Positions 3,001 to 35,444 of a stretch of DNA of 43,318 nucleotides are shown in pieces (within the stretch, counting starts at the first letter, position 1; each line of letters begins with the position of its first letter). The notes beneath the pieces are model-generated. The model saw only the letters and a list, made by a program, of their open reading frames with translations, did no database searches and had not been told where the DNA came from. Source of the stretch: Gemmatimonadota bacterium (GTDB lineage: Bacteria; JAAXHH01); assembly GCA_026706345.1 (NCBI GenBank), contig JAPOYX010000014.1:1-43318 (forward strand), written 5' to 3'. The position numbers and the translations under genes are program-made.

Positions 3001-5745
3001 GCGCCCGCCCGCTTCACCGCCCTCCGGCCCCAGGTCGATGATCCAGTCGGCCGTCTTGATCACGTCGATGTTGTGCTCGATGACGACGACGGTGTTGCCC
3101 TTGTCCACGAACGCGTTCAGCACGGCGAGCAGGTGGGTGATGTCTTCGAAATGCAGGCCCGTCGTGGGCTCGTCCAGCACGTACAGGGTCCGCCCCGTGC
3201 TGCGCTTGCAGAGCTCGCGCCCCAGCTTGATGCGCTGCGCCTCGCCGCCCGACAGCGTGGGGGCGGGCTGCCCCAGCTTGATGTACCCCAGGCCCACCTC
3301 GTAGAGGGTCCTCAGCACCCGGGCGATGGACGGGACGTGTTCGAACAGCTCCAGCGCTTCCTGCACGTCCAGGTCGAGGACGTCCGAGATGGAATGTCCC
3401 TTGTACTTCACCTCCAGGGTTTCCCGGTCGAACCGTTTCCCCTCGCAGATCGAACAGGAGACCCACATGTCCGCCAGGAAGTCCATTTCCACCCGCGTGG
3501 CCCCGTTGCCCTCGCAGGCTTCGCACCGACCGCCCCGGACGTTGAAGCTGAACCGTCCCGGCTTGTAGCCGCGCACCCTGGCCTCGGGCGTCTCGGCGAA
3601 AAGGGACCGGATCGCGTCGAAGACCTTCGTATAGGTCGCCGGATTGGATCTCGGCGTACGGCCGATGGGCGCCTGATCGATGCTGATGACCTTGTCCAGG
3701 TGTCCCGCGCCCTTGAGGCTGTCATACGCGCCCGGGTCCGTGCCGGCCCTGTTCAATGACCGGGCCAGAGCCGCGTACAGGATGTCGTTGATCAGCGAAC
3801 TCTTCCCGGAACCGGACACGCCGGTGACGCAGGTGAAGAGACCGACAGGGATGCGGACATCCAGGTTCTTGAGGTTGTTCTGCCGGGCGCCATAAATCGT
3901 CAGCCACTTGTCGTTAACCCCGCGGCGGGAGGCCGGAACGGGGATCGCCTTCTTCCCGTTCAGGTACTGCCCGGTCAATGAACCGTTTGTGGCGGCCACG
4001 ACGCCGGGGCTGCCCTGGGCCACGATCTCCCCGCCGTTGATGCCGGCGCCGGGGCCGAAATCCACCATGTGATCGGACGCCCACATGGTTTCTTCGTCAT
4101 GCTCCACGATGATGACGGTATTACCCTGGTCCCGCAGCTGGCCCAGGGTATCCAGCAGCCGCCGGTTGTCTCGTGGATGCAGGCCGATACTCGGTTCGTC
4201 GAGCACGTACATGACTCCGACGAGGCCGCGGCCGATCTGGCTCGCGAGACGTATGCGCTGCGCCTCGCCGCCTGAGAGCGTCGGCGCCGTGCGTTCGAGC
4301 GTCAGGTAGTCGAGTCCCACATTGAGCAGGAAGTCCAGCCGGGCGACGATCTCCTTGAGCGCTTCGTCGCCGATCTGGCGTTCGGCGTCCGACAGGGACA
4401 GCTTGCGGAAGAACGCTCGGATATCCGTGATCGACATCCGGCACAGCGCGGCGATGGAGACGCCGCCGAGGGTGACGGAAAGCGCTTCCGGCCTGAGGCG
4501 CTCGCCCTGACAGTGGTCGCACTCCCCGATGGCCATGTATCTTTCGAGCTCGGCCTTGTGCCGCGGGGACTTGAGTTGGTGATAACGTTTTTCCAGGTCG
4601 GGCACGACCCCGTTGAACCGGTCCTTGTGCGACCATTCGCCGCCCTTCCCGTTGCGGAAAGTGAAGGTAATGCGCTTGTACCCCAGGCCATACAGCAGGA
4701 CGCGCCGAGCTTCCTCGGTCAGTTTCTCCCAGGGGGTGTCCAGGCTGAACCCCACGTATCCGGCTATACCCTCGAAGAAGTGCCGTTTCCAGAGATTGGT
4801 GATTCGCCCGAGGGGTTCGATCGCCCCTTCGTTGATGGATTTCGCCGGATCGGGTATGATGAGCCGCGGCTCGATCCGCATCATGGTGCCCAGTCCGTGG
4901 CAGTTCGGGCACATGCCCTGGGGACTGTTGAAGGAGAACAGCTGCGGCGCGGGCTCCTCGTAGCTCAGGTCGCACTTGTTGCAGGCGTACCGCGTGCTGA
5001 AGAGCTGGTCGGAAGTCCGGCCGTCCTCCTCCAGCTGGATCATCATGGTACCCTGGCCCAGATGCAGCGCGCCTTCCACGGCTTCGACCAGCCGGGTGCG
5101 TATATCGTCCCGCAGGACGAGCCGGTCCGTCACCACCTCGATCGTATGCCGCATGTTGCGGTCGAGATCGGGATCTTCGGAGAGGTTGACGACCTCGCCG
5201 TTCACCCGCGCACGCAGATAGCCCTGCCGGCGCAGGTCCTCGAAGAGGTCCCGGTATTCCCCGCGCCGGCCCTGGACGACCGGCGCCAGGACGTGCAGCC
5301 GGGTTCCCGAAGGCAGCGCCAGGATACGCGCGACGATCTGTTCGAGGGTCTGCGCCCCGATCTCGTCTCCGCATTTCGTACAATGGGGCGTTCCCACCCG
5401 GGCGTAGAGCACGCGCAGGAAGTCGTAGATTTCGGTAATCGTCCCGACCGTGGACCTCGGGTTCAGTCCGGAGGCCTTCTGTTCGATGGAAATGGCGGGC
5501 GCCAGCCCGGTGATCCGGTCCACGTCGGGTTTCTGCATCTGGCCGAGGAACTGCCTGGCGTAGGCGGAAAGTGATTCCACGTAGCGCCGCTGACCCTCCG
5601 CGTAGAGGGTATCGAAGGCCAGCGAGGACTTGCCGGAACCGGATACCCCGGTGAAGCAGATCAACGCGTCTTTGGGCAGGTCGAGGCTGACGTTCTTCAG
5701 GTTGTGAACGCGGGCCCCTTTGATCTGGATGGTCGTTCTGGCCAT
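1..5745 (-). CDS. uvrA: Double-length excinuclease ABC subunit A (tandem UvrA-UvrA fusion), 3' end not in window
   Basis: DNA-damage recognition ATPase of nucleotide excision repair (UvrABC). Translation from the ATG at 5745 (MARTTIQIKGARVHN) shows no in-frame stop to the window edge, about 1915 codons, twice the usual 940 aa. Copy 1 spans residues 1 to about 940 and copy 2 about 959 to 1900, joined by a Pro/Glu-rich linker. Each copy has two ABC domains. GVSGSGK Walker A motifs lie near residues 33, 640, 990 and 1594, and LSGGEAQR signatures near 490, 830, 1445 and 1785. Zinc-binding cysteine pairs (e.g. CNKC/CPNC, CEAC/CSIC in copy 1; CPSC/CPEC, CEAC/CEVC in copy 2) are retained in both. 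Double-length UvrA is known in chlamydiae, for example. The last ~17 codons at the left edge are antisense to an SDR-like fragment, so the true C-terminus probably lies near residue 1895 and the natural stop is missing. There is no strong ribosome-binding site before the ATG. Confidence 0.93.
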   Translation of the reverse strand, partial: MARTTIQIKGARVHNLKNVSLDLPKDALICFTGVSGSGKSSLAFDTLYAEGQRRYVESLSAYARQFLGQMQKPDVDRITGLAPAISIEQKASGLNPRSTVGTITEIYDFLRVLYARVGTPHCTKCGDEIGAQTLEQIVARILALPSGTRLHVLAPVVQGRRGEYRDLFEDLRRQGYLRARVNGEVVNLSEDPDLDRNMRHTIEVVTDRLVLRDDIRTRLVEAVEGALHLGQGTMMIQLEEDGRTSDQLFSTRYACNKCDLSYEEPAPQLFSFNSPQGMCPNCHGLGTMMRIEPRLIIPDPAKSINEGAIEPLGRITNLWKRHFFEGIAGYVGFSLDTPWEKLTEEARRVLLYGLGYKRITFTFRNGKGGEWSHKDRFNGVVPDLEKRYHQLKSPRHKAELERYMAIGECDHCQGERLRPEALSVTLGGVSIAALCRMSITDIRAFFRKLSLSDAERQIGDEALKEIVARLDFLLNVGLDYLTLERTAPTLSGGEAQRIRLASQIGRGLVGVMYVLDEPSIGLHPRDNRRLLDTLGQLRDQGNTVIIVEHDEETMWASDHMVDFGPGAGINGGEIVAQGSPGVVAATNGSLTGQYLNGKKAIPVPASRRGVNDKWLTIYGARQNNLKNLDVRIPVGLFTCVTGVSGSGKSSLINDILYAALARSLNRAGTDPGAYDSLKGAGHLDKVISIDQAPIGRTPRSNPATYTKVFDAIRSLFAETPEARVRGYKPGRFSFNVRGGRCEACEGNGATRVEMDFLADMWVSCSICEGKRFDRETLEVKYKGHSISDVLDLDVQEALELFEHVPSIARVLRTLYEVGLGYIKLGQPAPTLSGGEAQRIKLGRELCKRSTGRTLYVLDEPTTGLHFEDITHLLAVLNAFVDKGNTVVVIEHNIDVIKTADWIIDLGPEGGEAGGRIIAEGAPETVAGVEASSTGQILGKALRPRAPQTPPEPVEKVASEDGHIREITVRGAREHNLNDLSVAIPRDRMTVFTGVSGSGKTSLALDTIYAEGQRRYVESLSAYARQFLQQMQKPKVDHIVGLSPAISIEQKSPGRNPRSTVGTITEIYEYLRALYALAGVPHCPACRVPIGAQTPSQIVDRIMTLPEQTRATLHAPLEPDGAEGYEALLDRARRNGFIRVRIDGVLHRLEEDIQIDRRRRHELCVVVDRIVMRGDVRQRLADSVETTLELSGGLLIAEVQEPDSDDARDIRFSRYYSCPSCGVSYEEPSPQSFSFNHRSGMCPECEGLGTQPGIDLDLLIPNRSKSIREAAAAIWGDDAMGDRSMFDLLEQVASAKGFNLETPVEALSPEQLQAFLHGSEQWIDDPRVPGLSFQFRGIFPTVELVARYANRFPELARLLQPTPCSACDGGRLRPDSLSVLIDGVSIAGLCAMSIDRATAFIDAVELSASQREVVGEVMTEIRNRMRFLLDVGLEYLTLDRRAPTLSGGEAQRIRLASQIGSGLTGVLYVLDEPTIGLHPRDNLRLIEALENLRDLGNTLIMVEHDRDTLEHADNLVDFGPGAGTYGGRIVGEGSPAALKEHPASLTGRYLGNRVRIEVPRNRRKPGRNKLHVVGARQNNLKNIDVTLPLGLLICVTGVSGSGKSSLVNDILYPVLASTLHRAQVNPGPHDEIRGLRFVDKVINIDQTPIGHSPRSDPSTYVGLFAPIRSLFAQTVEARMRGYEPRRFSFNVPAGRCEACQGLGVRKIEMHFLADVWMTCEVCDGKRYMKETLEVTYKGKTIADTLEMTVAEALEHFENVPRIRRMLQTLYDVGLDYIKLGQSAVTLSGGEAQRVKLAKELSRPGTGKTVYLLDEPTTGLHFDDIRKLLKVLNRLVDRGNTVLVIEHNLDIIKTADWIVDLGPEGGDQGGHVVATGTPEKIAASLSHTGQILARELAAGALVHLVEDDVTQNAGVVD

Positions 5746-17176: not shown

Positions 17177-19714
17177 TCAGCGCGCCAGGTTCTCGTAGAC
17201 CGCACGGGCTTCGCGAAACTGGCCGAGCACGTGATCGATTTCCTCCTGAGAACGCCAGCCCGGATGCTCCCCGGCCATTTCGATGAGCCGGTCGATCCAC
17301 CGGACGAAGTATTGGGCGGAATCCCGGTTGCGGATCGTATCCTCTCCCACGTAAACCCGAATGGATTGCGTGGTGGCCAGCGGGTAGCGGTCGTCGATGG
17401 GGTGCGTCCAGGGGCTGCCCTCCGCTTGGAGGGTGTACCATCCGCTTTCGCGAACGGTCATCTGTTCCTCGAAAACCGCCTCGGTGCCTTCCCCGGAAAG
17501 CGGAATCTCCTTCAGTATCCGGCCGTTGTGGTAAACCATGACCCTGTCGAGGGGTACGATGCTCCGGACCGCTCCCCGTAGCGTAATTGCACCGCCCGCT
17601 GCGGGAAGTCGGATGATTTCGCCGGGACCCGCACCGTCGATGGTAAAATCGAGAAGGGGCCCATTGGTGGCGAACGTCCGTCCGGCCCGCAGCGCCGACA
17701 GCCAGGCGCCCCAGGACAGGGGTTCGTCGCCGAGGTAGACGTAGGACCGCACCTGGCCGACGATGGCGGTCCGGTACATGCTGCTGATGGAGTCCTCCCC
17801 GCCGGTCAGAACGATGTTGATGTCGTTATTGAGCAGGTGATGCCACACGTTGAGGACGGCATGCCCCGCCCCGGAGATCTCGAGGGCTTCGACGGTGCCC
17901 AGGGCCGCGTCGACGGGAAAGGCCTTGGCGCTGCCCAGCGTCGGGTTATCGCCGCCCAGCGGATCCGCTTCGCCGAAATAGGGGTGGACATAAGCCCTGA
18001 AAGCCCCCTGCTCGCCGGCAAGCCGCAGCATATCCGTGTTTGACGGGTACAGACTGTATATCGCGGTGCCCTCGTACCCGGACGCGAAGGGCGACAGGAG
18101 GAAGTCCGACAGGTCGATGAAGTAAACGTGCCCGTGAAAGGCGGGACGGTATTCCTCGCCCACGTGCAGGATGTGCTCCGGCGTGGAAAGGGCGTCAGGC
18201 TTACCCGTGAAGAACTGGTAGTCCAGCATCCGGTTGTCCTTGTTGGCCACGAGTTCATTGACCACGGACTGGTCCTCCGCCTCCGACATGTGCATCAGGT
18301 TCTCCAACGTGTTGTGCAGGTCCCCCGCGTAGTTCATATGCACGTGCGTGCTGCCGCTGTACCATCCCTGCTCGCGCATGTCCGTCATGCGCCGCAGCGT
18401 CAGGGCCACGGCAGTGGTCTTCCCGTCCTCGATCTCGACCGTCTTGCTGACAGGGTGGTATTCGAAGCCCTTCATGGCTTCCACGGTCAGCGGTCCGGCC
18501 GGGACGTCCAGGATGAAAGATCCGGGCGCGTGAAAGAAGTGTTCGCGGAGCCGGCCGACGCGGTGGTAGGCACCTTCCGCGGCATAGGACTTGCCGTCGG
18601 ATGCCCGGGCATAGACGCGGACCGTGGCCGGTTTTCCCGTGTCGCCGTCCAGGACGGTGACCGCCGCCCGGCCGTGAGGACCGCGCCAGCGTTTTTCCTC
18701 GATCACGACGTCGGTTTGCCTGCCGCCCACGGTTTCCATGATCCGCAGACCCGGCAGGCCGTACTCATTGGTAATGTAAGCGATTTTCGATCCGTCCGGC
18801 GACCAGCGGGGATAGAAATCGTCCCAGTCGCCGAAGGTGATCTTGTAGGGATGGCCCCCGTCCGCGGGCAGCAGGTAGAGTTTCGTGTACTGGCCGCCGC
18901 GATGGGAAGCGTACACGAAACGCGACCCGTCCGGCGACCAGTGCGGCCGGGTCCGGTACAGCGTCTGTTCTTCGAGTACGATGCTGGCTTTGTCGATACC
19001 GAACGGCTCGACGGGCATCCGCCGTACCGCCCCCGATCCGAGGGGAATGCCGCGGTTGCCGACGAACATCAATTCGCTGCCGTCGGGCGACCAGCTCGGT
19101 TCGATGTGGAGGTCGTAAGCACCGAAGTACAGGCGGCTCTTTCCATAGTCATTGTCACGGGTCAGCTGAATCGGGTCTCCGGCCGCGCCGCCGTCCGCCA
19201 TGTCCTGTACGAAGATGTTGAAGTAGCCGTTGGGTTCCGTGGACACATAGGCCAGCCTGGAACCGTCGGGCGACCACGTGGGATCGAGATAAAGGTGATC
19301 CCCCGTCTTCAGCGGCCGGGATACCCCGGTTTCGACGTTCAGGACCATGAGATCGATGGTCCGGTTGTCGGTTTCCGCCGTGTAGGCGATCCATGCGCCG
19401 TCGGGCGACCAGGCCGGAGAGGAGTCGTAGGTTTCGTTGTCCGTGAGCTCGCGGGCCGAGTATTCGTCCAACCGTATCTGCCAGATGGACCCGTGCAGGG
19501 CGAAGGCCAGCGTCTCGCCGTCGGGGGACCATGCCGGCCGGCGCGGCGTGGTCGTGGAGGGCGGCGGCAAATAGAAGTTGTGCATGTAGTTGCCGCCGGT
19601 ACGGGCGGCCTGGTAGGCCGTGGGAGGAGGCTGCTGGGCTGCCGTGCTTCCGGCCGCCGCGATGAGGCATGCGGCCAGGACCAGGCGCAGGGACGCGGGA
19701 ATCCTCTGGATCAT
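17177..19714 (-). CDS. Secreted TolB-repeat / CehA-McbA-like metallohydrolase hybrid
   Basis: 845 aa. The ATG at 19714 has AAGGAGG six bases upstream. A signal peptide (residues 1-26, ending STAAQ) indicates export. Six WSPDG repeats between about residues 60 and 345 form a TolB-like PD40 propeller. A carboxypeptidase-regulatory-like beta domain follows, around residues 365-440. The C-terminal half is a CehA/McbA-type PHP metallohydrolase, with THVHMNY near residue 455 and HPYFGEAD near residue 578 as likely metal ligands. CehA-type enzymes hydrolyse carbamates or phosphoesters, but here the natural substrate is unknown. It is the downstream-most gene of a minus-strand group of exported proteins. 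Propeller plus PHP fusions are known in planctomycete-like genomes. Confidence 0.88.
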   Translation of the reverse strand: MIQRIPASLRLVLAACLIAAAGSTAAQQPPPTAYQAARTGGNYMHNFYLPPPSTTTPRRPAWSPDGETLAFALHGSIWQIRLDEYSARELTDNETYDSSPAWSPDGAWIAYTAETDNRTIDLMVLNVETGVSRPLKTGDHLYLDPTWSPDGSRLAYVSTEPNGYFNIFVQDMADGGAAGDPIQLTRDNDYGKSRLYFGAYDLHIEPSWSPDGSELMFVGNRGIPLGSGAVRRMPVEPFGIDKASIVLEEQTLYRTRPHWSPDGSRFVYASHRGGQYTKLYLLPADGGHPYKITFGDWDDFYPRWSPDGSKIAYITNEYGLPGLRIMETVGGRQTDVVIEEKRWRGPHGRAAVTVLDGDTGKPATVRVYARASDGKSYAAEGAYHRVGRLREHFFHAPGSFILDVPAGPLTVEAMKGFEYHPVSKTVEIEDGKTTAVALTLRRMTDMREQGWYSGSTHVHMNYAGDLHNTLENLMHMSEAEDQSVVNELVANKDNRMLDYQFFTGKPDALSTPEHILHVGEEYRPAFHGHVYFIDLSDFLLSPFASGYEGTAIYSLYPSNTDMLRLAGEQGAFRAYVHPYFGEADPLGGDNPTLGSAKAFPVDAALGTVEALEISGAGHAVLNVWHHLLNNDINIVLTGGEDSISSMYRTAIVGQVRSYVYLGDEPLSWGAWLSALRAGRTFATNGPLLDFTIDGAGPGEIIRLPAAGGAITLRGAVRSIVPLDRVMVYHNGRILKEIPLSGEGTEAVFEEQMTVRESGWYTLQAEGSPWTHPIDDRYPLATTQSIRVYVGEDTIRNRDSAQYFVRWIDRLIEMAGEHPGWRSQEEIDHVLGQFREARAVYENLAR

Positions 19715-19793
19715 GTTGTTCCTCCTTCCAGTGCCTTGTCCACCTCTGACGCCCAGGAGCCTTCCCCCGGGTTTTGCGTCGGAAAGTTCCATC

Positions 19794-22484
19794 CTACGGT
19801 TTCGGTAGATTCAGGTCGGGCACAACCCTCCGCGGAGCGATTCGCATCAGCGAAGCCAGACCTGTCGGCGAGTCTTCATAGACCTCGAACTGATGGACAT
19901 CCTCGTCGACGTCCCCGACGGGCGACGCCATCCCCGTCTCCGCGTCCACCGCGTACAGTTTCGCCGTCCACCCGCCGGCCATGTACAACGCGCCTCGGTG
20001 TGAAGTCAGTCCGGTCGGCAGATCTTCTCCCACGCCGAAATCGGATGCCTCGCCGACAGGCGTCGCCGTCCCCGTGGAAGGATTCAATACGTAAAGTTTC
20101 CCTGAACCGTACCCGACCATGTACAGGCTTCCTTCGTGGGAAGCCAGGCCGAAGGGGTGGCGTTCATCGACACCGAACCGGTCGGCGTTGCCGACCGGCG
20201 TCGCTTCTCCCGTCACGGTATTGAGCGAGTAGAGCCTGGCATTCGCCCTACCGGCCATGTACAGCGTTCCGTCGTGGGACGCCAGTCCCGTTGGCTGGGA
20301 TTCGGCGATCCCGAATTCCACCGCGTCGCCGACCTGAACGGCCGCGCCGGTTTCCGGGTCCAGCGTGTACAGCGCCGCGTTCCATCCGCCCGTCATGTAC
20401 AACATGCCATGATGCGCGGTCAGACCGTGGGGCTCGTACTCGCCGGCGTCGAATCGCACGGCGTCTCCCACGGGTTTGGCTTCTCCCGTATTCGGATTCA
20501 ACCTGTACAGCCGGTCGGTTCCGTCGCCAACCATGAACAGTCCCTCCGAAAAGCCGGCTTCGTCGCAGCGTGGACCCTCAGGGTTGTCAAGGGCCTCGAA
20601 CCAGGTAAGCAGCGCCGGCGCGCCCGGTAGACACAGACCGTCATTGTCATAGAAGAAGAACGTCAAAAGGTCTGTAAGGCCTGCAAAAGACCCGGGTACT
20701 TCCCCGGTGAACTGGTTTCCATGGAGATACATGCCTTCGAGGTCGTCAAGCCGTCCCAACTCGGATGGAAGGGGTCCGGACAGTTCGTTGTTGAACAGGT
20801 ACAGCCCTTCGAGATCCTCGAGCCGTCCCAACTCGGACGGGACAGGTCCGGAAATCCGGTTGTTGTGCAGCAACAGGTATTCGAGATTGTCCAGTCTGCT
20901 CAGTTCGACCGGCAACGGTCCCGAAAGTTTGTTTCCATAGAGGCTCAGCAGACGCAACCGGGAAAGTTCGCCCAGGACGGCGGGGATTTCGCCGGAGAGA
21001 CCATTGCTGTTGAGGAACAGCAGCTCGAGATTCGTCAGCTGTCCCAGCTCCACGGGGATCGGTCCCGACAATCTGTTTTCATCGAGGTCCAGACGTTCCA
21101 GGCGGGTCAGGTGACTTAATTCAATCGGAATGGTGCCGGACAGTTCGTTCTTCCAGAATATCACGCTCTTCAGATTGGCCAGATCACCCAGTTCCGGCGG
21201 GATCGTACCGCTCAGTTTGTTCCTGTAGAGGTACAGTACTTCCAGGTTCTGCAGTAGTCCCAGTTCGGCGGGTATGGGTCCGAGTAGTTCGTTGCTGTCC
21301 AAAGCAAGCGACTCGAGATTGGCGAGTTGACCCAATTCCGCAGGGACGGTACCGGTCAGGCGATTCCTGCCAAGGTCCATTCGCTTCAGGCCGGTTATCC
21401 GCCCCAGCGCCGGGGGGACCGGACCCGACAGATTGTTGTTTTCGAGGTCCAGTACTTCCAGGTTGGGCAGCAGGGCAAGTTCGGCGGGAACGGGCCCCGA
21501 GATTCCGTTCCAGCCGAGATCAAGGATCCTCAGTTCCGCGAGCTGGGCAAATTCGACCGGGATGCCGCCGGATACCTGGTTGAATGCCAGGTCCAGTTCC
21601 CTCAGCAGGGCGAGATCGACGAGGCTTGCAGGCAACCTGCCCGACAGGCCGTTCCTTCTCAACTCCAGCCGGATCACTCTGCCGTTCGCGTCGGTAGTTA
21701 CGCCGTGCCACTCGCTCAGGGGCACCTCTTCATTCAGCCAGTGTTCTTTGTCACTCCAGTCGGGACCCTTCAATGCGTGGTAGAAATCAACCAGCGTGGT
21801 GCGATCGCTGATCACGATGGCCACGGTTACGGGCACGCTGGCCGAAACCTCGCCGGACGTGGCCATGACGACCGTGCTGCCGCTGCTCACGGCGGTGACC
21901 GTTCCCGCGTCGTTTACCGTCGCCACTGTTTCATCGGCAGTTACCCATTTCACCGGCGCGTCTTCGACGATCTGGCCGTTTTCGTCCAGGACCGTGGCAT
22001 TCAGTCCGGCGGTCTCGCCGGCCGCAGTCAGCGACACAGACGCCGGTTCGACGGTGATCGTCGCTGCCGACTGGGACACGGTAACCGAAGCAACCGTCTG
22101 CTTCTGTCCCGCGGTGGCCGCGATGTCGGCCGTACCGTTACCATAGGCGGTGACGAGCCCTCCGTCGCTTACGGAGGCTACCGACGGATTCCGGCTCGAC
22201 CAGACCACCTCGTGGCCCGTCAACACGTTGCCGTTCTCGTCCTGCACCTGCGCCGTAAGCTGCACGGACTGATTGATCGCCGTCATGGTAACGGCGCTCG
22301 GAGTTACGACGACTTTAGCCGGACCGGTCGGACGGGTGGGGCCGTCCTTCCCGCATGAAACCGCTGCAAACAGGGCGAGCAGGAAAAAGACGGGGATTCG
22401 AGTTTTCAGGGAAGTCGCCCGCGGTGTTCGTAATCTACCGCCAGATGAAACCGATTCATGATTGGACCGGCGTTGGAAACACAT
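19794..22484 (-). CDS. Surface lipoprotein with two BIG2 domains, 13-14 plant-type LRRs and a propeller-like C-terminus
   Basis: 896 aa. The ATG at 22484 has AGGAGG upstream. A hydrophobic signal ending AAVSC (Cys near residue 44) marks a lipoprotein. Residues 55-220 hold two bacterial Ig-like (BIG2) domains (e.g. VVWSSRNPSVASVSDGGLVT). Residues 278-615 hold 13 to 14 leucine-rich repeats of 24 residues with consensus IPxELGxLxNLExLxLxxNxLSG, the plant-specific LRR type. Residues 641-871 hold five ~49-residue repeats (LYxLNPxTGxAxPVGD, then GLASHxGxLYM) resembling a beta-propeller. The LRR face suggests protein or glycan binding. It is probably exported and held at the cell surface; it lies 79 bases upstream of the CehA-like gene. 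The binding partner is unknown. Confidence 0.88.
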   Translation of the reverse strand: MCFQRRSNHESVSSGGRLRTPRATSLKTRIPVFFLLALFAAVSCGKDGPTRPTGPAKVVVTPSAVTMTAINQSVQLTAQVQDENGNVLTGHEVVWSSRNPSVASVSDGGLVTAYGNGTADIAATAGQKQTVASVTVSQSAATITVEPASVSLTAAGETAGLNATVLDENGQIVEDAPVKWVTADETVATVNDAGTVTAVSSGSTVVMATSGEVSASVPVTVAIVISDRTTLVDFYHALKGPDWSDKEHWLNEEVPLSEWHGVTTDANGRVIRLELRRNGLSGRLPASLVDLALLRELDLAFNQVSGGIPVEFAQLAELRILDLGWNGISGPVPAELALLPNLEVLDLENNNLSGPVPPALGRITGLKRMDLGRNRLTGTVPAELGQLANLESLALDSNELLGPIPAELGLLQNLEVLYLYRNKLSGTIPPELGDLANLKSVIFWKNELSGTIPIELSHLTRLERLDLDENRLSGPIPVELGQLTNLELLFLNSNGLSGEIPAVLGELSRLRLLSLYGNKLSGPLPVELSRLDNLEYLLLHNNRISGPVPSELGRLEDLEGLYLFNNELSGPLPSELGRLDDLEGMYLHGNQFTGEVPGSFAGLTDLLTFFFYDNDGLCLPGAPALLTWFEALDNPEGPRCDEAGFSEGLFMVGDGTDRLYRLNPNTGEAKPVGDAVRFDAGEYEPHGLTAHHGMLYMTGGWNAALYTLDPETGAAVQVGDAVEFGIAESQPTGLASHDGTLYMAGRANARLYSLNTVTGEATPVGNADRFGVDERHPFGLASHEGSLYMVGYGSGKLYVLNPSTGTATPVGEASDFGVGEDLPTGLTSHRGALYMAGGWTAKLYAVDAETGMASPVGDVDEDVHQFEVYEDSPTGLASLMRIAPRRVVPDLNLPKP

Positions 22485-22582
22485 GTAACGCACCTCCTGA
22501 TGAGACGGACTGCGACAGGTGTCGCGTTCGCCGTGAGACCAATGCCTCTTCGTCGGAGAAGTCTCCCGCGTCCGGCAGGACA

Positions 22583-25500
22583 TCAGAAGCTCATGCGTCC
22601 GATGAGACCTATGCGGTGATGGACAGATCCGCCCCGGCGATCGACGCGCGCGCCCGAAAGCTCCAGGGATCCGGAACGCGGGCTCCGGCCCTGGCCGCCG
22701 ACGCGGGTTCCGATCCGCACCTGGCGCCGTTCATCGCCGTAGAGATACATTTCGCCAAAAGAGGTGAACAGCAGGCCGGTGGGAGAAGTCAGGCCATACC
22801 CCACCTCGGCCCGAAGGGAACGGGCATCTCCGCCTCCGCCCATGGCAGATCCGGCAAGGGGCCGGTCGCGCCATATCATGCCGGAGTCGCCGGTGCCGAC
22901 GCCCGCGCGCGGGGCCACGGACATCGAAAGGCCCTGCCCGTCCGCATCCGGATTCAGGTAGGCAACCATGGAGAACCCGTGCTCGCTGTAATTCTGCTCG
23001 GTATGGACGGCCAGGAACCTGCCCCGCGCGTTCACGCCGACCCGGTTTCCGGCCAGCCGCAGGCCGCCCGAGACCTCAAGGCCCTGTCCGGTTCGTCCGT
23101 CGCCGCCGTCATAGCGTCCGGCCACCTGGGCATAGGGGGTTGCCGTGACGCCGCCGCCCAGGGCCGCCGATCGCGAACCTTCCAATCCGATACGTATACG
23201 CCGCACGCTGGCGGCGATGCCGCGCAACGCGGCCGATCCGTCGTCGGAGGTGGAAACGCGCAGCAGTCCCGCGTCCCCCACCAAGTCGATCCCCATGCTT
23301 CCCGAGGAGGCCAGCCGGGAACGCAGCCCCACCATGCCCATGCGCATGCCCAGATCGCTGGCGTCCGTACCGTTGTCGACGTTGCCGGAACCGAGACCCA
23401 GGATCGACCACACTTCGGTGCAGCATCCCTCCTCGGACCAACGCGCGTAGGGCAGTACGCTGGCGAGGCTGGCCTCCAGGCTACCGCTGGCCACGGCGAC
23501 GTCGTAATCGGACCGCCCCATGGCGTAGGAGAGGGCGATGCCGGCCATCCAGCGCCGCCGCGCGGCCAGGTCCACGCCGAGATAGGCCGTCCTCGTGTTG
23601 CCGTCGTAGAAGGCGCCGGCCGCGGGTTCGCCCTCGAAACGCTGCCAGTCGCCGGCCCCCCATACGCCCCATCGAAGACCGCCGCCGGCGGTCTGGTCGT
23701 CGAAGGCGTAGGAGAAGGCGCTGGTCCTGAGCAGGTCATTGCCGCGAACGCCGTTCCGGCGCCGACCATCGTCCATCAGCGCCAATTCCCTGGACGATTC
23801 CCGTCTCCAGTGTCCGGTCGCGCCGGCCAGCGCCGACACGGCGGCCGCGGGACCGTCGATCCTGCGTCCGCCCACGACCACGCCCTGATCGCCGCTGCCG
23901 GCGAAACGTCCGCCGATGGTGGCGGAAGCGCTCGAGAGCATGCCGCGGCCCATGGCGGCTAAGATATCGGTATAGGTCTCGCGTTCCGCCAGGACGGCCG
24001 TGACGGTTACGCCGACGACGAGGCTGGCCTCTCCGGCCGCGTTCCTGGCGGAGAGGGTCACCGCGGCCGATCCTTTGCGCACGCCCGTTACGCTCAACGT
24101 GGCGCCGGAGAGGACCGCTAAGGCCACGCCGTTGTCCGACGAACTCGCCGAATAGGCCAGCGCGGCGCCGCTGAAGAGCGCGCCCGCGTCGATCGTCTCG
24201 GAGCGCCCCGCTTCCAGCGTTACCGACGGTGATGCGCCGACAACCGCCGGAGCATCGAAGGCATCGCTTATCCTGAGCGTCGCGGCGCCGAGGTCCCGGC
24301 CATTGAAACGCGCCGTGAAGACGATCGTTTCGCCCCCTGGTTCATATACGTCGTCACCGACGGGCGTGACGGTAAGCTGCGTCAATCCCTCCGTCTGTCC
24401 GCCGGGAATCGAGATGCTAAAGTTTCCGCTCACACTGTAGTCGTCGCCGGTAGCCGTGCCGGAAAGCGAAAGCGGGATCACGGTCGCGACCGGTATGGCC
24501 ATGCCGGTCCGCGTCGCCGTCACGGTCACGGACTGCGCGCCGGCGTCCTCCGACACGGCAGCCGGACTCACGGTAAGCGTGATGTCGGGCGCGTGTTCGT
24601 CCAAGTCGACATACAACCCCGATCCGATGATGAATGCCGTCCCGTCGTAGGTCATGATTTCCGCGTAACTCACCTTCGGCGAGCCGGATTCTTCGTCTCC
24701 GTCCACGTCCGGATTGTCGAAGTGATACTCGACGAAACCGCCTCCGGCCTGCGCGGCCTCGATGATTTCACGGGTGTAAAAGACCCCGTTGAGGTCCTGG
24801 TGATCATAGAGGTTCATGGTTTCCAGCGATGGATTGGCGCCGTGAAACACCAACACGCCGTCGTCCCGAAAGACAAACAGGTAAACAGCCCCCTGCTTCC
24901 AGGGGCCGCCTTCTTCTCTGAGCGCCCGATCTATCTGCGCCGGCAGCGCTTCCGGACCGGAGCCCGCCCGCGCAAAAGCCTCCTTCGACCAGTTTGCCGC
25001 GCCCTGCACGAAAGCCTTCAGCGTTTCCCGGTTCGTCACGTCCCGCGCCCATACCCCGGGCGGGTCCGGCAATTCCAATTCTTCGTCGTTCGTTACGTGC
25101 TGATTGAAACCGGCCGCCACCACCCAGGTCTGGCCGGTCTGCGCAAGCGTATAGGGGATCGCGTAGGCCACCCGGGCTGGAGGAGACGTCGAGGCGATCT
25201 GGAACGGATCGACGCCTTCCACTTCTGGGTCGTCCCACGTATAATCGACGTAACCGCCGCCGGCCGCCGCCGTTTCCAGGATCATCCGGACGACCAATAC
25301 CCCGTTGTCGTCTTCCAGGTTGCTCGCGTCGATACCGTCCCGGGTCGGGTCGTCCGCGTGCAGGAACACCGTGCCGTCGGGTTGGAACAAGACGAAATAC
25401 ATCTTGCCGGGCATTCTCCAGATTCCCGCCGACCGGATATCCGTCCCGAGTCTGACGGCTTCCTCCGCGGTGTCTATGGTATCTAGGTAATCCCTGAAAC

Positions 25501-26929
25501 CAGCTACGAAGGATCGAAGCGTCTCACGATCCACCACGTCGGCCGCCGTTACGACGTTTTTCGTGTCTGTCAACGCGATGGTGGCGGACGTCAGGTCGTT
25601 GCCTTCATAACCGGCTCGGATCACGATGGTCTCGACGCCTTCCGCCGTTCCGTCGTCGAATGCCTTGAAAGTCAGTGTCGTGGAAGCCGAGTCGGCGTGC
25701 CGGGGAATGATGATCTCAAGCGTTCCTTCCAGATCGTAATCATCGGACGTGGCCGTACCCGCCAGGGAAAGGTCGATGATTGTCGCCACCGGTACCGGAT
25801 CCTCGCGCAGCGCGGCCGTTACCACCACCTCCTGGACGTCGCCGCCTTCGGATATGGCCGCGCGATTCACCGCCAGGGTGATCTCCGGCACGTTATCCAC
25901 GGGCCTGCGGTAGAAACCGGCGCCTACGACGAAATGCTGCCCCGGGTACCGCGCGACTTCCATCAATTCGGCGTAGCTCACCTTGAGCGAACCGAGTTCT
26001 TCATCGCCCGTGATCGACGGGTCGTCGAAGTGGTACTCGACGAAACCGCCGCCCGTCGCCGCGGTCTCGATGAGTTCCTCGATGAATCGGACGCCGTTGA
26101 GGTCTTCGAGATCAATCCGGATCTCGCCTTCCTGCGTCTTGTCCGCGCCGTGGAAGAACACGTATCCTTCCGTGGTGACGATGAAGAGGTAGATCGCGCC
26201 TTCTCTGAACGGTCCGCCCTCTTCTCTCAAGGCGATCGTGATCGCCCCGGCGTCCGCATCGTGCTCCTCAACGGCGTCGAGGTACCACTGGATCGAGCCT
26301 TTCACGAAAGCCTTGAGCGTTTCCCGGTCCACCACGTCCGCGGCGCGCACCGCGGGCGGATCGGGAAGCGTGCGCTCTTCCGGATCGTTGATACTCATGT
26401 GGAAACCGCCCGCCAGGATGTAATCGCCCACGCCGAACCCGGAGGTATACCGGATCGCGAAGGCCACGCGGTCGGGTGCGTCGTCCGGATCCCTGAGATC
26501 ATCCCAGGTGTATTCTATGAACGAGCCGTCGGCGTCCACCGCAATGATTTCCTGCACGACTTTCTTGCCGGTGTCGTCTTCCAGCCCACTGATATCGGTT
26601 TCGACGATATAGGGATCCCCCCCATGCTCGATCACCACGCCCTCGAGACTGAGAATCACCAGGTACAGGTCGCCCTGTTTCCAGTCGCCTTCGTTCCGCA
26701 GGGATCTTTGCATTCCGGGCACGTCGTTGAGGTCGTCGATTCGTTCCAGGGAATCCGCCACCGAGACGACGAAGGCCTTCAACGTCTCGCGGTCCGTTAC
26801 CTGGCTGGCCGTAATCGTCGCGCCCTGGGCCAGGGCTGGCTTAGCGTGAACGAACAGGCCGGCCAGACCGACAAGCAGCCCGAAGACCAGGACTGATCGC
26901 CTCGAAACGTGAGCAGCTATGGAAGACAT
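22583..26929 (-). CDS. Giant autotransporter-like protein with two [Cache-Cache-Calx-beta] units
   Basis: 1448 aa. The ATG at 26929 has AGGAG seven bases upstream. Order of domains: signal peptide (1-35, ending ALAQG), Cache-like 1 (40-180), Cache-like 2 (195-345), Calx-beta 1 (345-455), Cache-like 3 (462-612), Cache-like 4 (630-775), Calx-beta 2 (780-892), Ig-like (895-980), and an autotransporter-type barrel (about 985-1448) ending in Phe. Each Cache unit has DRETLKAFV, REEGxWKQG and GGGFVEYHFDDP. The linkers before Cache 2 and 4 both read LPDPP. Cache domains normally sense small molecules in receptors, so display by a barrel is unusual. It neighbours a truncated paralogue (27895). Ligands and release from the surface are unknown. 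Confidence 0.88.
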   Translation of the reverse strand: MSSIAAHVSRRSVLVFGLLVGLAGLFVHAKPALAQGATITASQVTDRETLKAFVVSVADSLERIDDLNDVPGMQRSLRNEGDWKQGDLYLVILSLEGVVIEHGGDPYIVETDISGLEDDTGKKVVQEIIAVDADGSFIEYTWDDLRDPDDAPDRVAFAIRYTSGFGVGDYILAGGFHMSINDPEERTLPDPPAVRAADVVDRETLKAFVKGSIQWYLDAVEEHDADAGAITIALREEGGPFREGAIYLFIVTTEGYVFFHGADKTQEGEIRIDLEDLNGVRFIEELIETAATGGGFVEYHFDDPSITGDEELGSLKVSYAELMEVARYPGQHFVVGAGFYRRPVDNVPEITLAVNRAAISEGGDVQEVVVTAALREDPVPVATIIDLSLAGTATSDDYDLEGTLEIIIPRHADSASTTLTFKAFDDGTAEGVETIVIRAGYEGNDLTSATIALTDTKNVVTAADVVDRETLRSFVAGFRDYLDTIDTAEEAVRLGTDIRSAGIWRMPGKMYFVLFQPDGTVFLHADDPTRDGIDASNLEDDNGVLVVRMILETAAAGGGYVDYTWDDPEVEGVDPFQIASTSPPARVAYAIPYTLAQTGQTWVVAAGFNQHVTNDEELELPDPPGVWARDVTNRETLKAFVQGAANWSKEAFARAGSGPEALPAQIDRALREEGGPWKQGAVYLFVFRDDGVLVFHGANPSLETMNLYDHQDLNGVFYTREIIEAAQAGGGFVEYHFDNPDVDGDEESGSPKVSYAEIMTYDGTAFIIGSGLYVDLDEHAPDITLTVSPAAVSEDAGAQSVTVTATRTGMAIPVATVIPLSLSGTATGDDYSVSGNFSISIPGGQTEGLTQLTVTPVGDDVYEPGGETIVFTARFNGRDLGAATLRISDAFDAPAVVGASPSVTLEAGRSETIDAGALFSGAALAYSASSSDNGVALAVLSGATLSVTGVRKGSAAVTLSARNAAGEASLVVGVTVTAVLAERETYTDILAAMGRGMLSSASATIGGRFAGSGDQGVVVGGRRIDGPAAAVSALAGATGHWRRESSRELALMDDGRRRNGVRGNDLLRTSAFSYAFDDQTAGGGLRWGVWGAGDWQRFEGEPAAGAFYDGNTRTAYLGVDLAARRRWMAGIALSYAMGRSDYDVAVASGSLEASLASVLPYARWSEEGCCTEVWSILGLGSGNVDNGTDASDLGMRMGMVGLRSRLASSGSMGIDLVGDAGLLRVSTSDDGSAALRGIAASVRRIRIGLEGSRSAALGGGVTATPYAQVAGRYDGGDGRTGQGLEVSGGLRLAGNRVGVNARGRFLAVHTEQNYSEHGFSMVAYLNPDADGQGLSMSVAPRAGVGTGDSGMIWRDRPLAGSAMGGGGDARSLRAEVGYGLTSPTGLLFTSFGEMYLYGDERRQVRIGTRVGGQGRSPRSGSLELSGARVDRRGGSVHHRIGLIGRMSF

Positions 26930-27010
26930 CGAATCTCTCCTGTCTGGTTTAATATGCATTTCGCGATATCAGCCCGTACAGACGGAAGCAACCCTTTCGC
27001 AAAACAGAGA

Positions 27011-27048: not shown

Positions 27049-27870
27049 CTATGCCGCGGCGTGGCTGCGTTCCAGCGCCTTCTCCACTTCGGATTCCCAC
27101 GTGCCGTCCACGCGAACGCCGTACTCCGCCACCCCACCCGTCGCCCGCGGTCCGGTGACATAGGGCCGGTAATCCCGGTCGTCCTCGATGAGCCGATCGG
27201 GCGCGAAGTCCGCGCGGAGAAAGTGGAAGGCGATGCCGGCGCGGGAGTTTTTCGTTCGGTTGTGGCCGGTGCAGTGCGCGGTGCCGTAGCAGAAGAACAG
27301 GGCGCCGCCCGCCTTCAGTTCGATGGTATCCGCCTGCTCCTCCGGGGGATAGCAGCGGATGTGGTGGTCGCTGTAGGGGTCCCGGCTGTGTTCGTAGGGC
27401 GTTCTGTAGCTGCCGGGAATCACCTGCATGGTGCCGTTTTCGACCGTGGCGTCGTGCACGGCGATCCAGACGGCCGTTCCCTTGAGCGGATCGCGGATCT
27501 TGAAATAGGCGTTGTCCTGATGCCAGTGGGTGCCCATGCCGTCGCCGCCCGGCTTGAGAAAGACCTGATCCAGGTGGAGGATAAAGGGATCCCCGATCAA
27601 CAGGGAGATGGCGGCGACCACGTCGGGCTGGAACGGGAGGGCCCTGAACAGGTCGCTTTGCCGGTACATCGGGCAGAGTTGCAGGTTCCGCTGCGTGGAG
27701 GACGCCGTCTTCCCGTCGCCTGCCGTGGCGACGTTCCGCAACGCGCCGTCTTTCATGAGACGGTCGATCTCGGACTGGAAGGCCCGGGTCTCGCGGTCCG
27801 AGAAGAATCCGGGTTTTGCCACGTAACCGTGGTTTCTGAAATGAGTGACTTCTTTGTCGGTGAGTACCAT
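27049..27870 (-). CDS. Phytanoyl-CoA dioxygenase (PhyH) family protein
   Basis: 273 aa, cytoplasmic non-haem Fe(II)/2-oxoglutarate-dependent oxygenase. The iron-binding HxD is in HWHQDNAY (His117, Asp119). The distal ligand and 2-oxoglutarate site are in AHCTGHNRTKNSRAG (probably His199 and Arg210). VIPGS and the VENG motif are typical of PhyH. The substrate could be a modified lipid, ectoine-like compound or small alkyl metabolite. It sits between two Cache-family genes on the same strand, 24 bases from the truncated one, so it may belong to the same transcript. A second PhyH lies at 41564 but is not closely similar in the variable region. Confidence 0.92.
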   Translation of the reverse strand: MVLTDKEVTHFRNHGYVAKPGFFSDRETRAFQSEIDRLMKDGALRNVATAGDGKTASSTQRNLQLCPMYRQSDLFRALPFQPDVVAAISLLIGDPFILHLDQVFLKPGGDGMGTHWHQDNAYFKIRDPLKGTAVWIAVHDATVENGTMQVIPGSYRTPYEHSRDPYSDHHIRCYPPEEQADTIELKAGGALFFCYGTAHCTGHNRTKNSRAGIAFHFLRADFAPDRLIEDDRDYRPYVTGPRATGGVAEYGVRVDGTWESEVEKALERSHAAA

Positions 27871-27894: not shown

Positions 27895-28779
27895 TCAGAA
27901 ACGCATGCGGCCCAGCAGGCAGATTCGATGGACGGACGCGGTGCCATGCCGGTCGATCCGCATGCCGGAAAGCTCCAGGTGCGACTGGTTCCGCGCTTCC
28001 AGTGTCCGGTCGGCGCCGTGAAAGATCACGTATCCATCGTCGTTCAGGATGAACAGGTAGATGGCTCCGTGGCGCCAGGGACCGTCCGCGATCCTGAAGA
28101 CGTCCAGGATATCGTTGTAGCGAGGGGTCCCATGTTCTCGCAGTGCGGCAGCGTAGCCTCTGGCTGCGCCGATGACAAAGGCCTTGAGGGATTCGCGGTC
28201 CATCACGTCGGCCGCGGTCACCTCGGGCTCCGCTATGAGCGACGCATCGACCATGGGAGGCACGACACAGGATACGTCCTGATAGAACCCGCCGGCCAGC
28301 ACGACCCTGTTGTTGTAGGTCTTGCCGAAAAAACTCGTGGCATAAGCCACCTTTACGGGATCGTCCTCGTCGTCATCGGGATCGTCCCAATGGTATTCGA
28401 CGTGTCCGCCGTCCATCAACCCCGCCTCGATGAGCGCCCTGACCACTTCGTCTCCGCGACCGTCCCGGAGATTGAACAGGTTCTTGCCTGCCGCGGACTC
28501 GTCGTCCGCGTGAAACAACACAGTGCCGTCCAGGCTCAGGAGCATGAGAAACACGTTCTCGTGCTTCCAGTCTCCCTCCATCCTGGTGCTGTCCAGAAAC
28601 GGCGCCAGCGCGCTATCTTCCGCGAATATCATTTCGATATGGGCTTTCGCGCTTTCCACGAAGGTCTTGAGCGTTTCCCGATCCACCACTTCGTTCGCCG
28701 TAATTGGCGCGCCCTGGGCACGAACGGGCTTCGCCTCGAGCAGTAAACCCTCTAGAAGTAAACCAAAGAGTCCTGTCAT
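27895..28779 (-). CDS. Shortened Cache paralogue: signal peptide, one Cache, half a second Cache, last barrel strand only
   Basis: 294 aa from ATG 28779; an upstream TTG gives nine-base (three-residue) extension. It has a degenerate signal (ending VRAQG), one full Cache-like domain (DRETLKTFV, GDWKHENVF, GGHVEYHWDDP) and a second that breaks off near GADRTLEARNQS. The final ~27 residues, HLELSGMRIDRHG then HRICLLGRMRF, match the extreme C-terminus of the giant protein (LELSGARVDRRG, HRIGLIGRMSF). The second half of Cache 2, any Calx-beta and Ig-like parts, and nearly all of the barrel are missing. An in-frame internal deletion of an autotransporter paralogue explains this. Without the barrel, surface display is not expected, so it may be a decaying gene or a periplasmic Cache protein. 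Confidence 0.8.
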   Translation of the reverse strand: MTGLFGLLLEGLLLEAKPVRAQGAPITANEVVDRETLKTFVESAKAHIEMIFAEDSALAPFLDSTRMEGDWKHENVFLMLLSLDGTVLFHADDESAAGKNLFNLRDGRGDEVVRALIEAGLMDGGHVEYHWDDPDDDEDDPVKVAYATSFFGKTYNNRVVLAGGFYQDVSCVVPPMVDASLIAEPEVTAADVMDRESLKAFVIGAARGYAAALREHGTPRYNDILDVFRIADGPWRHGAIYLFILNDDGYVIFHGADRTLEARNQSHLELSGMRIDRHGTASVHRICLLGRMRF

Positions 28780-28853
28780 TACCCCCAAACCAGCATAGAG
28801 GCCATCGATCTGGAAACAGTAGAGGAAGTCATGATTTGCGTCTCCCCGGTGGA

Positions 28854-30320
28854 TTACTCGGATAACGCCTCGTTTCCGAAACGTTCGATGGCTTCCAGGG
28901 TTTCGCGCACATCGTCCCAGGTCGTGGTATGGTTGACAATACAGAGCCTGAGTGTAAACTTGCCCGCCAACAGGGTCGATGACATGAGGGCGCGGTCCTC
29001 CCAGAAGACGCGGACGAGCACTTTCCGGTTGATCTTCTCGAGCGCTTCCTCATCGAGGTCTCCATTGTCGGGATTCACGCGGAAGCATACAATACCTAGC
29101 GAAGACGGCAACAACAGTTCCATGGTCCCGCTGTTCCGGATATGCTCCTCAGCCCGCCCGGCCAGTTCCATGCCTTTGGATACGGCGTTTCGGAATGCAG
29201 CCATTCCAAAGGTCTTCACGGACACCCAGATTTTCAGGGCCCGTACCGACCGGCTCAGTTGCAGTCCCCGGTCCGAGAAGTTGGGATGATTCGCGCCCCA
29301 TACCGTGTCCTGGAGGATATCGTGTCTTACGGCGAATGCGCGCTCGAGGTGGCCTAAGTCCTTCACCATCAGGCAGCCGGCTTCGTAGGGTTGAAAGAAC
29401 AACTTGTGCGCGTCCAGACCGATGGAGTCCGCGCGTTCTATGCCGCGCAGGAGGTCCTTTCCCTGTCCGGTGATTACCGTAAAACCGCCATAGGCGGCAT
29501 CGACGTGAAGCCAGATGCCCTCCGCCTCGCAGAAATCCGCCATCGTTTCGAGCGGATCGATCGCGCCCGTACTGGCCGCCCCGGCGTTGGCGCAGATCGC
29601 CACCGGATTGAATCCCACGGCCCGGTCCTTCGCCACCGTACGCCTCAACGCCTCCGGATCCATCCGGAAGAGCGCGTCGGTAGGTATCAAACGCACGTTT
29701 TCGGATCGTATGCCCATGATCCGGGCTGCCCGGACCAGTGCGCTATGGCTCTGGTCGCTCGTATAGACCGTGGCGCGTTCGGGAGTGCCTGCAGACTCCC
29801 GTGCCGCGACCAGGGCTTCCAGGCTGGCCGCGGAGCCTCCGGAAGTCATCAGGCCTCCGGCGGTATCCGGATACCCCAGCCAGCGTCGGATCCAGTCCAT
29901 GACGACCAGTTCCATCTGGCTTGCCCCACTGGATGTGAGCCAGGTACACTGGTTGACCTGGTATGCGGAGACCATGAAGTCAGCCAATACTCCGGGCCAC
30001 GTCGGCGCCGAAGGGATGAACGCGAAGGATCGGGGGTGATCAAGGCGGGCTCCCAGGGGGAGTATGTCCTTCGCCGCCCTTGCCAGGACCTCCAGCGCGG
30101 GACTGCCGCGTTCGGGCGGATCCTCCATGAGCTGATCTTCCAGTTCCTTCTTGAACTCGCCGTCCCAAGCGTGTTGCTCCGGAAGATTCCTGATACGTTC
30201 TACGATGAGTTCCGCCGTCCTGTTCGCGAGCTCGAGCATGACGTCCGGGGGCATCTGAAGGCCGTTGAGCGCCTCCGCATCCGATCTGTCGTTCTGCTTT
30301 TCCCGTTTCTCCCGCGACAC
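28854..30320 (-). CDS. PLP-dependent group II decarboxylase (aromatic-amino-acid decarboxylase-like)
   Basis: 488 aa, GTG start at 30320 with AAGGAG upstream. Members decarboxylate aromatic or related amino acids, or act as aldehyde synthases. The PLP lysine is in LDAHKLFFQP (Lys306). His192 in DQSHSALVRAA stacks on the cofactor ring, and Asp274 in VDAAYGG pairs with the pyridine nitrogen. The conserved TSGGSAASLEAL lies near residue 160. The active-site loop before Lys differs from the usual NPHKW of aromatic decarboxylases (DAHKL), so the substrate may be different. It is the upstream end of the minus-strand group. The 74 bases before the shortened Cache gene hold no promoter I can support. 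Confidence 0.9.
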   Translation of the reverse strand: MSREKREKQNDRSDAEALNGLQMPPDVMLELANRTAELIVERIRNLPEQHAWDGEFKKELEDQLMEDPPERGSPALEVLARAAKDILPLGARLDHPRSFAFIPSAPTWPGVLADFMVSAYQVNQCTWLTSSGASQMELVVMDWIRRWLGYPDTAGGLMTSGGSAASLEALVAARESAGTPERATVYTSDQSHSALVRAARIMGIRSENVRLIPTDALFRMDPEALRRTVAKDRAVGFNPVAICANAGAASTGAIDPLETMADFCEAEGIWLHVDAAYGGFTVITGQGKDLLRGIERADSIGLDAHKLFFQPYEAGCLMVKDLGHLERAFAVRHDILQDTVWGANHPNFSDRGLQLSRSVRALKIWVSVKTFGMAAFRNAVSKGMELAGRAEEHIRNSGTMELLLPSSLGIVCFRVNPDNGDLDEEALEKINRKVLVRVFWEDRALMSSTLLAGKFTLRLCIVNHTTTWDDVRETLEAIERFGNEALSE

Positions 30321-34521: not shown

Positions 34522-35040
34522 ATGGCCGATTTCCGCGGACATCTATGGGGCGGTTTCGCCGCCACGCTGTTTGCAGGCGTACTCTGCGTTGTCGGCCTGT
34601 GGTGGACCGAAAATCTCGATCCCTACAGGACGCTCGACGTCTGGCCCAGGGTCCTGTTGCTGCTCGCCATCGGGATGCTGTCCGCCTGTTTCCCGGACGT
34701 GGATACCGAGAGCAAATCCCAGCGTCTGTTCTACCGCCTGTTGATTCTGCTCGACATATGGTTTATCTTGATCGGGGATTACAGGACCGCGGCTTTGCTG
34801 GGCCTTGGCGCGATGCTTCCGCTGCTCGGCAAGCACAGGGGGTGGACCCACACCTGGCTCGCCATGCTGCTGGTGCCGGCGCTCTTCCTGCTCGTCCCCA
34901 TGTATCTGAAACAGACCGTCGAGTCCTTTCCGATCGTCTGCTACGTCGTTTCGGTATCGGCCTACGCAAGTCACCTGATACTGGACGGCTACATCGAGGA
35001 AACCACCAGGCGCTTCCGCCGGCTCCTCGGCGTGAAGTAG
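34522..35040 (+). CDS. DUF457/YdjM-like integral membrane metal-dependent hydrolase
   Basis: 172 aa with about four hydrophobic segments. Putative metal ligands are spaced as in the YdjM family: an early His in RGHLWGG, Asp in CFPDVDTESK, His in KHRGWTHT, and a late SHLILD. Family members sit in the inner membrane; some are phospholipase-like or SOS-linked, but the reaction is not established. It follows maf by three bases. A tandem 9-bp repeat begins immediately after its stop. Confidence 0.85.
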   Translation: MADFRGHLWGGFAATLFAGVLCVVGLWWTENLDPYRTLDVWPRVLLLLAIGMLSACFPDVDTESKSQRLFYRLLILLDIWFILIGDYRTAALLGLGAMLPLLGKHRGWTHTWLAMLLVPALFLLVPMYLKQTVESFPIVCYVVSVSAYASHLILDGYIEETTRRFRRLLGVK

Positions 35041-35042
35041 GC

Positions 35043-35132
35043 GGCCTGAACGGCTTGAACGGCCTGAACGGCTTGAACGGCCTGAACGGCCTGAACGGCC
35101 TGAATGGCCTGAACGGCCTGAACGGCTGGAAC
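35043..35132 (+). repeat. Ten tandem copies of a 9-bp unit GGCCTGAAC
   Basis: Ten nine-base units run without a gap; six are exactly GGCCTGAAC and the rest differ by one base (GGCTTGAAC twice, GGCCTGAAT, GGCTGGAAC). The array fills the space between the DUF457-like stop and the next gene's ribosome-binding site. In the frame of the downstream gene it reads Gly-Leu-Asn repeats and contains no stop. Confidence 0.95.
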
Positions 35133-35150
35133 GATCAAATCGGAGGTATC

Positions 35151-35444
35151 ATGAAAAGCGCACTGGAAATCGCCATGGAAAAGACCGCCGGCGCGCAGGA
35201 GGGCGGCGGTTTGACAGACGAGCAGCGAGGGGCGATCGGCGACCTGGAAAAGGAATACCAGGCCAAGATCGCGGAACAGGAGATCATGACCGAATCGAAG
35301 ATCAAAGCGCTCGCGGCCCGGGCGGAGGGTCCCGAGTTCCAGCAGCAGGTACACGCCCTGCGGGAGCAACTGGTTCAGGAACGGGAACGGCTGGAAGAGG
35401 AGAAGAGAGCGAAAGTACAGGCGGTCCGGGACCAGGCGCCATAA
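35151..35444 (+). CDS. Small coiled-coil protein of unknown function
   Basis: 97 aa. The ATG at 35151 has GGAGG four bases upstream. No signal or membrane segment. Residues 25-95 are Glu/Gln/Lys/Ala-rich with heptad-like spacing (IGDLEKEYQAKIAEQEIMTE, then LREQLVQERERLEEEKRAKV), so a long helix or coiled coil is expected. I do not recognise a named family. It is downstream of the dtd-maf-DUF457 run and the tandem repeat. The frame is open upstream through the repeat, so a longer Gly-Leu-Asn-tailed product is possible but less likely. Confidence 0.75.
   Translation: MKSALEIAMEKTAGAQEGGGLTDEQRGAIGDLEKEYQAKIAEQEIMTESKIKALAARAEGPEFQQQVHALREQLVQERERLEEEKRAKVQAVRDQAP

Follow-up and report, generated by a model that had tools for sequence, protein, structure and literature searches.

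In contig JAPOYX010000014.1 of a Gemmatimonadota bacterium, analysed here over its 43,318 nucleotides (the window), the reverse strand encodes a protein that carries four Cache domains ahead of a C-terminal autotransporter-type outer-membrane beta-barrel. Cache domains are normally sensor inputs; in this Cache autotransporter they seem to have been relocated to the cell exterior, where they stand in tandem as binding modules and keep their carboxylate pocket. We propose, with about as much reason to accept the reading as to doubt it, that the protein is a multivalent outer-surface array recognizing small carboxylates, and that it serves an association with a sponge host or with the dense microbial community of that host. 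Behind this reading stand features supported by sequence or computation: the identity of the domains, their retained pocket residues, the lack of signalling partners of the same family, the gain and loss of blocks, a patchy distribution across phyla and a recurrent decarboxylase neighbour.

The open reading frame spans 22583-26959 on the minus strand (1458 aa). Its true start is probably the ATG at 26929, which has an upstream AGGAGAG and is conserved in the closest ortholog (L070); the end coordinate of 26929 given in an initial annotation of this DNA is therefore right. A signal peptide, recognized by inspection, is followed by two sCache_2 domains, a Calx-beta-like spacer, two further sCache_2 domains, a second Calx-beta-like spacer, an immunoglobulin (Ig)-like domain and the barrel:

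26825-26929, minus strand: signal peptide (MSSIAAHVSRRSVLVFGLLVGLAGLFVHAKPALA-Q), from inspection of the sequence, with its start conserved in L070
26360-26824, minus strand: C1, sCache_2 of block-B type (aa 46-200), pocket Tyr-His-Tyr-Arg, ratio of nonsynonymous to synonymous substitution rates (dN/dS) 0.14
25898-26359, minus strand: C2, sCache_2 of block-B type (aa 201-354), pocket Tyr-His-Tyr-Lys, dN/dS 0.14
25562-25897, minus strand: X1, Calx-beta-like spacer (aa 355-466), 46% identical to X2, assigned via orthologs
25064-25561, minus strand: C3, sCache_2 of block-C type (aa 467-632), pocket Tyr-His-Tyr-Arg
24602-25063, minus strand: C4, sCache_2 of block-D type (aa 633-786), pocket Tyr-His-Tyr-Lys
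24278-24601, minus strand: X2, Calx-beta-like spacer (aa 787-894), 46% identical to X1, assigned via orthologs
23990-24277, minus strand: weak Ig-like (Big_2-like) domain (aa 895-990), Big_2 E = 0.0068, under the cut-off
23705-23989, minus strand: linker with predicted helices (aa 991-1085), from the sequence and the AlphaFold2 model
22586-23704, minus strand: autotransporter-type outer-membrane beta-barrel with a C-terminal Phe (aa 1086-1458), from profiles, models and fold matches

The Cache identity of the domains is solid. The Pfam profiles dCache_2 (5e-48, 164 bits against a cut-off of 26.5) and sCache_2 (2e-43, 148 bits against a cut-off of 25) both matched four stretches of the protein, and the closest names in NCBIfam, both far under their cut-offs, were the sensors MctS and CtpM. 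AlphaFold2 modelling of aa 466-1458 produced a confident C3-C4 pair (pLDDT, the predicted local distance difference test, mostly 80-97) with a PAS-like alpha/beta fold, and Foldseek matched the Cache models to 4k08, 4exo/2qhk, 5g4y and TlpB. Pfam and NCBIfam profile searches found no signalling domain in the protein. It also lacks the transmembrane helices that, with a cytoplasmic signalling domain, make up a transmembrane receptor, and ends in a barrel; a receptor fragment, having neither a transmembrane nor a signalling part here, was rejected. Self-comparison gave identities across the two blocks of 39% (C1-C3), 52% (C2-C4) and 46% (X1-X2). Since these exceed the 33% found between the two Caches of either block (C1-C2 and C3-C4), the Cache-Cache-Calx block was repeated as a unit. 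The initial annotation had described four Caches devoid of a signalling domain in a block duplicated as a unit, and the profiles, the predicted structures and the repeat identities agree with it on each point. Shuffling gave z-scores of 20-59 for the repeats, so a chance repeat was rejected, as was an assembly artefact, because a syntenic ortholog of 86% identity occurs in another genome. On a tree of the Caches, the second block proves composite: its first Cache groups with block C and its last with block D.

The ligand pocket is conserved as well. PscD contacts propionate via Tyr90, His103, Tyr143 and Lys156 (PMC5062169), and all four window Caches keep this Tyr-His-Tyr-Lys/Arg set. Across 85 aligned Caches, nearly all from these Cache proteins and, being related, not independent observations, the contact positions hold Tyr in 75 and Phe in 10, His in 83, Tyr in 83, and Lys in 74 or Arg in 11; all four rank among the 19 most conserved of 150 columns. 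The hydrophobic positions that flank them are variable. A small carboxylate is the likely, though putative, ligand. Comparison with the ortholog in genome G011 gave a dN/dS of 0.14 for C1 and C2, against 0.40-0.84 for C4, the spacers, the Ig-like domain and the barrel (0.40-0.46 for spacers and barrel), making C1 and C2 the most constrained parts of the protein.

The C-terminal region resembles an autotransporter barrel. The Pfam Autotransporter profile (PF03797) scores 1e-4 and 22.6 bits on the window protein, just under its 26-bit cut-off, which is passed by orthologs and relatives (L010, 29.0; L036, 26.4; L085, 29.2; L072, 26.3 bits). A fold search with the barrel alone returned BrkA first, then other barrels and autotransporters; phmmer against the PDB gave nothing meaningful, and a scan of viral contigs with the barrel alignment found no relative. 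The barrel is autotransporter-like, as the initial annotation had it, but long. The 12 strands of that annotation were not confirmed, because both AlphaFold2 barrel models draw about 18, at a low mean pLDDT of 62-68 from shallow alignments (62 for the barrel-alone model, from five sequences). The Calx-beta spacers that it described are taken as Calx-beta-like through their orthologs, without a direct PF03160 match in the window protein: an ortholog's spacer scores 8e-5 and 23.1 bits, under the 27-bit cut-off, and a related Calx autotransporter (L086) passes it at 49 bits. The genus also has autotransporters whose only recognized passenger domains are Calx-beta units (L086 and L087), and L084 carries Big_2 and fn3 modules; with their related barrels, these proteins form a modular passenger system. 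The window genome itself holds a second autotransporter with Calx and barrel (L079), cut by a contig end.

From this layout, the signal peptide would export the protein and the barrel would insert into the outer membrane, displaying the passenger outside. The Calx-beta-like and Ig-like modules would form a stalk, and the Caches would bind ligand as domains in their own right rather than feeding a kinase or chemoreceptor. We infer that the protein is surface-exposed, that its ligand is a small carboxylate or carboxylate-bearing group, and that it works in recognition or adhesion, not in uptake. Recombination between the Cache repeats would alter the size of the array.

Variation within the genus is consistent with such a process. 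The family occurs in all 11 other species, and the same slot is occupied in G001, G004, G005, G006 and G010 by copies with 3, 9, 3, 3 and 5 Caches, respectively, the count in G010 being cut by a contig end. In these copies a PhyH gene adjoins where the contig allows and a decarboxylase gene precedes in all but G005; in G002, G003, G007 and G009 the slot is empty, and the decarboxylase directly abuts PhyH. Four block types, A to D, separate on the Cache tree and are arranged as A+D in G001, G005 and G006, A+B+D in G010 and A+A'+B+C+D in G004; the window protein and that of G011 carry B followed by the C-type/D-type hybrid. Judged by these sequences, the arrays are built of orthologous blocks gained and lost, giving 3-9 Caches. 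Another copy, in G008 (L014), is decaying, with in-frame stops.

Beyond the genus, relatives are scattered over Spirochaetota, Acidobacteriota, Nitrospinae, a deltaproteobacterium, Cyanobacteria and Alphaproteobacteria. The named ones are Nitrospinae, Ca. Synechococcus spongiarum, the deltaproteobacterium, Boseongicola, Rhodothermales, Spirochaetaceae and several metagenome-assembled genomes (MAGs) of the Acidobacteriota group. Nitrospinae bin107 is an Aplysina aerophoba bin (PMC5649159), most other named relatives appear sponge-derived from their isolate codes or names, and the window genome itself is presumably of sponge origin. The Cache-Cache-barrel architecture recurs in L035, L036 and L037 and, within the genus, in L085; over 835 aa, L085 and the cyanobacterial L036 share 46% identity. 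The search for this architecture in other genomes that the initial annotation had called for was thus rewarded. In other relatives, judged by inspection, the proteins bearing similar pairs of Caches are lipoprotein-like or soluble, and the Spirochaetaceae and deltaproteobacterial pairs are 69% identical. Strong matches are rare in sampled kin: 3 of 151 for the Synechococcus family, 2 of 199 for the Boseongicola family, 12 of 396 for the Acidobacteriota sample and 1 of 393 for the Spirochaete phylum. The natural reading of this patchy cross-phylum pattern is horizontal transfer.

A recurring neighbour was also found, as the initial annotation had suggested checking. An all-against-all comparison of flanks yielded a single family that the window genus has in common with other phyla, a group-II pyridoxal 5'-phosphate (PLP)-dependent decarboxylase, whose best solved match is 4obu (2.5e-78). 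The window gene is flanked as follows:

28854-30320, minus strand: group-II PLP-dependent decarboxylase, the neighbour common to other phyla
27895-28788, minus strand: decayed second copy that retains one and a half Caches followed by the barrel's final 27 aa, with a frame break in the signal-peptide region
27049-27870, minus strand: PhyH-family dioxygenase, flank of the ancestral slot
19794-22583, minus strand: protein with two Big_2 domains and leucine-rich repeats (LRRs), with a lipoprotein-like N-terminus; its ATG overlaps the autotransporter stop, and it adjoins in G011 too

The decarboxylase is 59-71% identical in 16 other genomes across phyla, and only about 38-41% identical, or absent, in other genera of its own family and order. 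In four lineages it lies next to a Cache gene and is read from the same strand: the window genus, Nitrospinae (L035), Spirochaetaceae (L043) and three genomes of the Acidobacteriota group (L138, L139 and L141). Patchy relatives with intact pockets, mostly in genomes that appear to come from marine sponges and sometimes beside the decarboxylase, suggest a shared, undescribed recognition or capture device. More tentatively, and with the balance against it, the two genes may form a sponge-symbiosis cassette spread across phyla by horizontal transfer, in which the decarboxylase is genetically paired with a surface Cache array on each lineage's own anchor (barrel, lipoprotein or secreted); together they would recognize metabolites outside the cell in a way distinct from known Cache signalling. 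The same identities and adjacencies, and the match to 4obu, would fit an amino-acid or amine pathway, possibly overlapping with surface recognition, in which the ligand is a product or a substrate of the decarboxylase and the array retains or reads it in the sponge; at least seven genomes (among them L142-L147 and L152) have both genes but not side by side, and we consider this explanation unlikely.

Other uses of the array have to be weighed against recognition. It could capture nutrients by concentrating organic acids from the host at the cell surface, to be taken up by way of ordinary porins and a tripartite ATP-independent periplasmic (TRAP)-type transporter; the retained carboxylate pocket and one strong DctP-type TRAP binding protein in the window genome fit this, but no transporter recurs as a neighbour and binding at an outer-membrane display is not itself transport, so we hold it to be rather improbable. 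The initial annotation had envisaged surface ligand capture or sensing that feeds a separate receptor or importer. Capture is supported in the biochemical sense, because the ligand-contacting residues are retained. The feeding is not: every dCache_2 match in the window genome falls in the main reading frame or its decayed neighbour, no dCache_2-family receptor was found elsewhere in that genome, no methyl-accepting chemotaxis protein (MCP) signalling domain was found in it or in the 11 other genus members searched, and the adjoining genes are metabolic (decarboxylase, SAHase-like, PhyH) or encode the LRR lipoprotein. A sensor that passes the binding signal on to a distinct receptor or regulator would agree with the usual role of Caches and with their intact fold and pocket; without such partners, or a signalling gene among the constant neighbours, we regard it as very improbable. 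Caches serving as inert bulk or variable antigen would account for the block gain, loss and decayed copy typical of surface repeats, but hardly for the conserved pocket residues and for the outer two Caches being the most constrained, and we give this little credence.

Several observations weigh against surface recognition in a sponge. The pocket's surroundings differ from those of PscD, with Trp92 replaced by Phe or Val and Phe126 by Val, Ile or Thr in the window Caches, and a small-carboxylate pocket would be as suited to free metabolites as to host surfaces, so that adhesion is not required. Some Acidobacteriota carriers have no known origin, nor do other members of the cyanobacterial family with standalone secreted double-Cache proteins (L064 and L066). 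The topology of the barrel is modelled at modest confidence. The patchy and mainly sponge-linked spread makes the array a well-defined candidate, amenable to expression, for the means by which unrelated symbionts recognize the same host environment.

Elsewhere in the window, the Cache block of the decayed copy is of type A on the Cache tree, and the repeats of the Big_2/LRR-array protein are C-terminal. A UvrA-like reading frame of at least 1915 aa (1-5745, minus strand) runs off the window edge and appears to be two tandem UvrA copies fused in frame. A TolB-like propeller is fused to a CehA/McbA-type metallohydrolase domain at 17177-19792 (minus strand), and in-frame GLN repeats (GLNGLNGLN...) at about 34989-35444 probably reflect a short tandem DNA repeat. 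PADLOC found no defence family, and a promoter and terminator scan gave matches at chance level only.

In the literature searched, largely without subscription papers, 'Cache domain' and 'autotransporter' were mentioned together solely for a Desulfovibrio Lap-like system. The nearest published report describes Cache Pfams enriched in sponge Thaumarchaeota (PMC7848895); it likewise places surface Cache domains in sponge symbionts and proposes host recognition, but concerns archaea, and the passage in question mentions no architecture, autotransporter or decarboxylase link. A large study of sponge MAGs reported cadherin and fibronectin adhesion genes transferred among symbionts, with no Cache domains in its main text (PMC8163846).

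Compared with the sCache_2 chemoreceptor sensors (PscD, 5g4y; the V. parahaemolyticus MCP, 4exo/2qhk; Adeh_3718, 4k08; TlpB), the window Caches share the fold and, TlpB excepted, the carboxylate-contacting residues. In contrast to these receptors, the window protein has no transmembrane helices, MCP or kinase, and Caches of its family stand in tandem, up to nine, predicted to lie outside the outer membrane. With the type Va autotransporters BrkA, EspP, Hbp and EstA it has in common a signal peptide, a passenger and a predicted C-terminal barrel with a terminal aromatic residue; its passenger, however, consists of Cache, Calx and Ig modules where theirs is usually a beta-helix, and its barrel of about 360 aa is predicted to have about 18 strands. 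Modular adhesins of the LapA type, whose stalks are made of Calx-beta or Ig domains, resemble it in their tandem modular stalk, binding domains and variation in repeat number, whereas the window protein has an autotransporter-type barrel instead of type I secretion with LapD/G control, and its binding module is the Cache domain.

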